A DNA stretch of 51,564 nucleotides from Microcaldota archaeon (lineage in GTDB: Archaea > Micrarchaeota > Micrarchaeia > Micrarchaeales > CABMGC01). The stretch lies in the NCBI GenBank assembly GCA_028867435.1, contig JAGWGI010000006.1:1-51564 (forward strand). The letters are read 5' to 3'. This document shows, one piece after another, positions 16,017 through 17,108 of the stretch (position 1 is the first letter of the stretch; each line of letters opens with the position of its first letter). Under the pieces are notes generated by a model, which was not told the DNA's origin, ran no database searches, and worked only from the letters and a program-made list of their open reading frames with translations. The translations under genes and the position numbers were made by a program.

Positions 16017-16025
16017 CTATAAAAG
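16017..16025 (+). promoter_or_regulatory. TATA box for the sRNA/histone transcript
   Basis: CTATAAAAG about 22-30 nt upstream of the C box of the sRNA. Confidence 0.6.
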
Positions 16026-16040
16026 AATGTGAGTGATAAT

Positions 16041-16101
16041 ATCCTTGTGATGAGTAAGATCAAGTCTGACAAGTGATGACGATCTTGAGTGCTGATAAGA
16101 T
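16041..16101 (+). ncRNA. Box C/D guide sRNA in the histone 5' leader
   Basis: C GTGATGA (16047-16053), 12-nt spacer, D' CTGA (16066-16069), CAA, C' GTGATGA (16073-16079), 12-nt spacer, D CTGA (16092-16095); flanks ATCCTT/TAAGAT form an imperfect terminal stem. Confidence 0.8.
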
Positions 16102-16309
16102 GGCAAACATACCCAACCAAGCCATAAAGAAATTGATAAAGAGGTATGCAAAGGTCAACATAACAGAGGATGGGGCCGAAGCCCTGGGGAGGATACTTGA
16201 GAAGAAGGCGATGAATATATCGCGCTTTGCTGTGAAGAACGCAAAGAAGCAGGGCAGGAGCAAAATAACCAAGGAAGATGTTCTGAGATCTACAGTAGAT
16301 AGTGAGTAA
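16100..16309 (+). CDS. Archaeal histone
   Basis: MANIPNQAIKKLIKRYAKVNITEDGAEALGRILEKKAMNISRFAVKNAKKQGRSKITKEDVLRSTVD, single histone fold. Confidence 0.93.
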   Translation: MANIPNQAIKKLIKRYAKVNITEDGAEALGRILEKKAMNISRFAVKNAKKQGRSKITKEDVLRSTVDSE

Positions 16310-16864
16310 ATGGGACTCAAGGCCTTTAGGAGCCCTGATGGAAGATACAGGACAGCGCTCTACTCCGTGGAAGGAGAGGAGCACTTTCTCATAGCCGAGA
16401 AGACTGCAAATGGGGTGCTGCTTTCCGAATTCACCGGTATTGGGGAGGTGGTGGACCAGGTCTACAAGGCATCTGCAAATTTGCTCGCAGAGCTTAAGGC
16501 ATATCCTCATGGGGCTGGAGAGATTACCATTTCTGAGCGGCCTTACGAGTATCTTACTGTGAATGTGCATTGTACCAACTGCGATTCAAGAACGATGAGG
16601 CGTGAACTTGACAGTCTTGAGGTGTCAAAAATTGTGGAGGTGCCTGTGGTTCCGATGTTTTTGTGCACAAAGTGCAACAAGAAGTTTTACACTATGAGCA
16701 AGAGATACCTGCGTAACCTGATTGCTAGGAACCCGGAGCTCTTCGAGAAGGAAGAACTTAAGAGAAGAGAGGAAAATGAGGCGGCTTTCCTAAGCGAGAT
16801 ACAGGAGTATATGGTAAGGATATTTGCATCTAAAAGGCTTGCATTAATCAAAATAGATGGGTGA
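16310..16864 (+). CDS. Hypothetical protein with zinc-ribbon-like C4 motif
   Basis: CTNCDSRTM...CTKCNKKF; immediately follows histone. Confidence 0.75.
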   Translation: MGLKAFRSPDGRYRTALYSVEGEEHFLIAEKTANGVLLSEFTGIGEVVDQVYKASANLLAELKAYPHGAGEITISERPYEYLTVNVHCTNCDSRTMRRELDSLEVSKIVEVPVVPMFLCTKCNKKFYTMSKRYLRNLIARNPELFEKEELKRREENEAAFLSEIQEYMVRIFASKRLALIKIDG

Positions 16865-17108
16865 CAACATGTCGATCAATGTATCGGAACTTTATGGTAA
16901 GAAGATAATAACGATAACGGGCAGCATACTAGGCGACGTTAAGGAAGTGGTCTTGGATCTTGAAGAGGGCAGCGTGTCGCACCTACTGCTTACAAAACTT
17001 GAGGATCTCTCAAAAAGCGCGGATGCGAGGCAGAGCCTTGCAAAGAACAGGATCTTATACGAAAGGGTAAAGAGCGTTGCGGAAACCATAATTGTAAGCA
17101 GCAAGTAG
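16857..17108 (+). CDS. PRC-barrel domain protein
   Basis: VSELYGKKIITITGSILGDVKEVVLDLEEGSVSHLLL pattern of archaeal PRC-barrels (CdpB-like). Confidence 0.7.
   Translation: MGDNMSINVSELYGKKIITITGSILGDVKEVVLDLEEGSVSHLLLTKLEDLSKSADARQSLAKNRILYERVKSVAETIIVSSK

Follow-up and report, generated by a model that had tools for sequence, protein, structure and literature searches.

The 51,564-nucleotide stretch of Micrarchaeota DNA analyzed here (the window) raises the question of why a histone gene should open with a guide RNA, what that RNA guides, and what holds the two together. The original prediction placed a box C/D sRNA within the histone gene's 5' leader, and its boxes, its two 12-nt spacers and the 4-nt gap between box D and the histone ATG are exactly as described, with an ORF downstream that matches PF00808 at 28.1 bits against a cut-off of 21.4 (Table 1). 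With boxes C (RUGAUGA), D' (CUGA), C' and D (CUGA) in the order of an archaeal box C/D sRNA and guides of ~9-12 nt, the leader element is by its anatomy a genuine member of this class, located directly in the histone 5' leader. The pattern RTGATGA-N-CTGA-N-RTGATGA has a single match in the 1.05-Mb genome and none in a reversed control, and the same genome encodes the sRNP proteins fibrillarin (254.9 bits) and Nop5 (165.7 bits). Rfam searches of the window return tRNAs only, leaving the sRNA without a curated family match.

Table 1. The sRNA-histone locus, in window coordinates.
Feature	Position	Strand	Remark
TATA box CTATAAAAG	16017-16025	+	common to sRNA and histone; TATAAA begins 30 nt 5' of the TGATGA of box C
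Box C/D sRNA (histone 5' leader)	16044-16099	+	approximate mature form, its ends deduced from the TATA distance and from box D; box C to box D spans 16047-16095
Box C GTGATGA	16047-16053	+	TGATGA exact in 110 of 110 order-level loci
D' guide GTAAGATCAAGT	16054-16065	+	differs between genera
Box D' CTGA	16066-16069	+	window sequence
CAA between box D' and box C'	16070-16072	+	window sequence
Box C' GTGATGA	16073-16079	+	window sequence
D guide CGATCTTGAGTG	16080-16091	+	positions 2-11 are GATCTTGAGT, constant
Box D CTGA	16092-16095	+	followed by TAAG, then the histone ATG at 16100
Histone CDS	16100-16309	+	69 aa, begins MANIPNQAIKKL; PF00808

The pairing recurs across the order. Searches with the histone protein found matches in 56 of 61 genomes, and at each of the 30 best orthologous loci, all retrieved by protein alone, a C/D sRNA lies upstream of the histone; four further histone loci that were checked separately (G041, G045, G058 and G042) carry it as well, three of them with a box C' of TGATGT that the search pattern misses. 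Conservation upstream of histone in relatives, a check named in the original prediction, is thus found at 34 of 34 orthologous histone loci, from two families of the Micrarchaeota order. In the reverse direction, a histone ORF lies immediately downstream of all 110 order-level guide loci examined; 80 of these, from the order's two families, were fetched by the guide pattern itself, which makes the invariance of the guide among them partly a matter of construction, and it is the 34 histone-retrieved loci that form the unbiased set for guide conservation. Across the phylum the TGANGANGATCTTNAGTNCTGA pattern occurs in 172 of 303 genomes, with no match of the reversed control in the genomes listed. 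One genome that is 82% complete (G001) has a divergent histone-fold match only, which is without the sRNA, and a scan of genome contigs with the histone returned one close relative only. Conservation of these boxes and guides at every orthologous histone locus examined places the element beyond chance. In a limited literature search we found no earlier report of an sRNA arranged in the histone leader across an order; 5'-overlapping C/D sRNAs and guides for tRNA-Leu(CAA) are already known, and what is new on the genomic evidence is their fixed, order-wide pairing with histone.

What the sRNA guides can be read from its constant half. The original prediction tied the element to rRNA modification, but the constant guide fits the wobble position of a tRNA instead. 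The tRNA-Leu(CAA) gene of the window's genome (G000:C15:2490-2588) reads ...AGACTCAAGATCTG..., and positions 2-11 of the D guide (GATCTTGAGT) form 10 contiguous Watson-Crick pairs with ACTCAAGATC, that is, with the anticodon loop and adjoining stem from A31 to C40. The fifth guide nucleotide before box D faces wobble C34, so that the N+5 rule puts the methyl group on this residue and makes the tRNA, not rRNA, the predicted target. By our arithmetic, the chance that one of ~45 tRNAs would match all 10 nt exactly at its wobble position is about 4e-5. The 10-mer in tRNA-Leu(CAA) is identical in 59 of 61 genomes, and in the D guide the constant stretch measures exactly 10 nt, with positions 1 and 12, both unpaired with the tRNA in the window's genome, varying between loci; such a boundary is as expected under the published maximum of 10 nt for a guide-target duplex (Yang et al. 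2016, as cited in PMC7089733). Of the target search that the original prediction envisaged, the part concerning the D guide has accordingly been borne out, with 10 bp and an N+5 residue at C34, and we predict that this guide directs 2'-O-methylation of wobble C34 in tRNA-Leu(CAA). In bacteria the same nucleotide of tRNA-Leu(CAA) is acted on by TrmL, a tRNA-Leu C34/U34 2'-O-methyltransferase that is a stand-alone protein enzyme and not RNA-guided. The isoacceptor tRNA-Leu(UAA), with ACTTAAGATC, would also pair with GATCTTGAGT, with a single G-U at U34, and at one locus (L204, genome G219) the guide reads GATCTTAAGT and fits U34 of tRNA-Leu(UAA) rather than the (CAA) tRNA. Cm34 of tRNA-Leu(CAA) has been predicted for P. 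furiosus and was not detected in the tRNA set of PMC7668247.

The tRNA genes concerned have features of their own. A short insertion in the T-loop of tRNA-Leu(CAA) (L083; also L241 and L242), about 14 nt long in the window's genome and apparently an intron, accompanies the failure of ARAGORN to find this gene, and two genomes of another genus have a similar insertion; tRNA-Leu(UAA) (L240; G000:C40:39950-40150) has a seeming insertion in the D-arm region and is absent from the Rfam tRNA matches.

The D' guide, in which the target search yielded no clear partner, differs from genus to genus while the boxes around it stay fixed. D' guides of several genera, compared with the 16S and 23S sequences of relatives including flanks, gave nothing consistent (in the window's genome the 23S gene ends at a contig edge and no 16S gene was found), and among tRNA bodies none pairs with the D' guide at the N+5 position. 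Within family f2 the D' guide AATGCACTACG is conserved across genera g31 and g40 at many loci (e.g., L208-L212 and L221-L229), and there it may have a target. The partial complementarity that had been pointed out between the two guides exists in the window's genus and is not conserved in other genera, where the D' guides differ, and we take it to be incidental. The terminal stem proposed from the flanking ATCCTT/TAAGAT was abandoned: over 110 loci there is no excess complementarity in any of 12 registers. The sRNAs of N. equitans and M. kandleri are likewise without a terminal stem.

The idea of a single promoter for both products holds up well. Over the 110 loci the center of the TATA element lies about 28 nt 5' of box C, A and T make up nearly all of positions -30 to -26, and essentially all loci have the element near -30; combined with archaeal TATA-to-start spacing (box A lies 26 nt upstream of the transcription start in N. 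equitans; PMC3491384), this position puts the transcription start at the sRNA 5' end. TATA lies only before box C in 107 of the 110 loci, and a TATA-like element placed for a leaderless histone occurs in just three, among them a locus with a 55-nt gap between box D and the start codon (L224); a second promoter for a leaderless histone was rejected on this count. As judged from these positions, sRNA and histone make up a single transcription unit with no promoter or terminator between them. Since there is no room for a terminator between box D and the ATG, the 3' end of the sRNA would arise by processing of the histone transcript, and with no space for a second promoter either, the histone mRNA itself has to be the substrate of sRNA maturation.

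The histone start codon is closely tied to box D. The gap between them measures 1-5 nt in 77 of 110 loci (4 or 5 nt in 61), with no Shine-Dalgarno sequence in it; gaps of 6-7 nt do not occur in any of the 110, and 26 loci have gaps of at least 8 nt (8-55), of which 18 contain a Shine-Dalgarno-like motif (shuffled mean 7.6, maximum 14). Since 4- and 5-nt gaps are both common, the reading frame relative to upstream codons is not the constraint. An ATG placed 4-5 nt after box D without a Shine-Dalgarno sequence, the commonest layout, would also suit a process in which excising the sRNA leaves a histone mRNA that is leaderless yet translatable. At L207 and L216-L219 (family f2; genus g42 and G037) histone has no plausible start other than one inside box C' or the guide, and there the guide and box D encode the histone N-terminus as MILSTE, MILSAE or MILSTD.

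The boxes, the guide, its 10-bp target match, the promoter position, the order-wide linkage and the lack of a second promoter are all present in the DNA itself, and they lead us to a reading that we consider probable: the C34 guide sRNA is the histone leader, and a transcript from one TATA promoter is processed into both an sRNP and a histone mRNA. RNA polymerase would start at the sRNA 5' end and, meeting no terminator before the ATG, continue into the histone coding sequence; the two C/D motifs in the leader would be the site on which L7Ae, Nop5 and fibrillarin assemble, and cleavage or trimming by nucleases immediately after box D would free a guide sRNP, which would then methylate tRNA-Leu(CAA). 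The remaining histone mRNA would be leaderless or nearly so where the start lies 1-5 nt after box D, and would keep a leader of its own, usually with a Shine-Dalgarno sequence, where the gap is at least 8 nt. It is important to note that the transcript ends, the RNP assembly, the cutting position, C34 methylation and translation of the cut mRNA are what we infer from this arrangement. Several observations count against it: in genus g7 (two genomes; L019 and L034) the D guide is GATCTTTAGT, with a mismatch exactly opposite C34 despite an unchanged tRNA-Leu(CAA); at L207 and L216-L219 excision would destroy the mRNA start, which lies inside box C'; no terminal stem is conserved; and in reporter work, as summarized in PMC7994747, 5'-overlapping C/D sRNAs reduce downstream expression.

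That last result can be turned around to favor a regulatory switch, in which L7Ae or the complete sRNP on the terminal C/D k-turn would cover the ribosome-binding region and the start codon 4-5 nt away, so that histone translation is lowered, its output tracks sRNP supply, and the linkage is kept for this reason. L7Ae is known to repress translation via k-turns in 5' leaders (PMC5539422), the distance from box D to the ATG is tightly short in the 77 loci described above, the linkage persists across two families, and a start inside box C' makes sRNA and protein mutually exclusive at L207 and L216-L219. An either/or choice between an L7Ae-bound guide RNA and a translatable mRNA, as the original prediction had it, is compatible with the leader's layout, and histone regulation through L7Ae or the sRNP is plausible by analogy with such leaders. 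The guide, however, is conserved for its tRNA target and not for regulation, and the 26 loci with a start 8-55 nt away, often with their own Shine-Dalgarno sequence, would largely escape occlusion; we consider the switch possible but rather unlikely. Quantitative coupling of histone synthesis to C/D sRNP assembly, with each transcript becoming either guide or histone mRNA or with the cut making both, is similarly doubtful; if true, it would place the histone level and the decoding of UUG leucine codons under one promoter and one supply of L7Ae, Nop5 and fibrillarin.

The persistence of the pair could also be a matter of promoter economy, in which an sRNA with its promoter landed before the histone gene, whose own promoter then disappeared, locking the two together with no regulatory link. 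This concerns why the pair persists and is compatible with the processing mechanism proposed above, and it is the account toward which we lean slightly. In other families of the class the guide is likewise found between C/D boxes, and it stands away from histone: no histone ORF lies within ~1.5 kb on either side of the guide at 30 loci in these families, histone and sRNA are on different contigs in six of their genomes that have a histone, and none of five inspected histone loci has the guide. A TATA-like element precedes 19 of the 27 stand-alone sRNAs with a recognizable box C. The simplest history would have the ancestor of the window's order joining such a stand-alone sRNA to its histone gene. 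Most archaeal C/D sRNA genes, furthermore, borrow neighboring transcription units (PMC7994747), and the second TATA-like stretch at L224 looks as if a histone were able to acquire a promoter again. On the other hand, many rearrangements would have been possible, and that the pair has nonetheless been kept in dozens of genera points to some cost or benefit, although lock-in by itself could account for it. The non-histone copies also bear on the view that the block is conserved as a control element for histone, acting in DNA or mRNA, such as an operator or translation enhancer, and only resembles a C/D sRNA: its constant position beside the histone start codon within the order would suit this view, but the two C/D box pairs have retained the spacing of an sRNA, the sequence of the D' guide is free to change while its boxes stay fixed, and the D guide matches an anticodon loop, leaving it largely refuted and hardly credible. 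Very unlikely, too, is that the guide and box D serve as an N-terminal histone extension read from the box C' ATG (M-T-I-L-S-A-D-K-M-A-N-I-P...). Its frame would match that of the histone in the window and at every locus with a 4-nt gap, and at L207 and L216-L219 it has the sole available start, but it is out of frame at the 23 loci with a 5-nt gap, and the conserved start is MA[NSRT]I(P/S).

Parts of this arrangement have counterparts elsewhere. A C/D box sRNA of Pyrococcus is directed at the wobble base of tRNA-Leu(CAA) (Gaspin 2000 and Omer 2000, as cited in PMC7994747). It resembles the present sRNA in its predicted C34 target and in its other guide often having no target, whereas the one described here belongs to Micrarchaeota and forms a histone leader. 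In Pyrobaculum, too, it is typical of tRNA-targeting C/D sRNAs that one guide lacks a target (PMC7994747). The 5'-overlapping C/D sRNAs, about 7% of archaeal C/D genes in the 2017 work summarized in PMC7994747, similarly abut or overlap the 5' end of a protein gene, with the start after box D or in the guide, but they are summarized there as rare and repressive, whereas a single pairing of sRNA and gene holds throughout an order here, both served by one promoter at the sRNA 5' end. Leaders that respond to L7Ae through a k-turn, among them that of the l7ae mRNA itself (PMC5539422, PMC6298567), share a k-turn-forming element beside the start codon, and their repression has been established in other archaea (PMC5539422); they are simple k-turns, however, whereas the histone leader makes up a complete double C/D sRNA, one of whose guides is directed at a tRNA.

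At this locus a guide for tRNA modification and an archaeal chromatin gene appear to be physically fused, and the fusion seems deeply conserved. It resembles the snoRNA host genes of eukaryotes but uses the leader in place of an intron, and as a natural and well-defined case it allows one to test how a 5'-overlapping C/D sRNA and a protein gene share a transcript. Among the stand-alone sRNAs, those of family f4 (L123-L134) often have near-copies of guide and box D downstream, split by hairpin-like inserts. Downstream of histone in the window (16310-17108), a 184-aa ORF without a Pfam match but with zinc-ribbon-like CxxC pairs adjoins the histone gene without a gap and is followed by a PRC-barrel protein, probably in an operon with histone.
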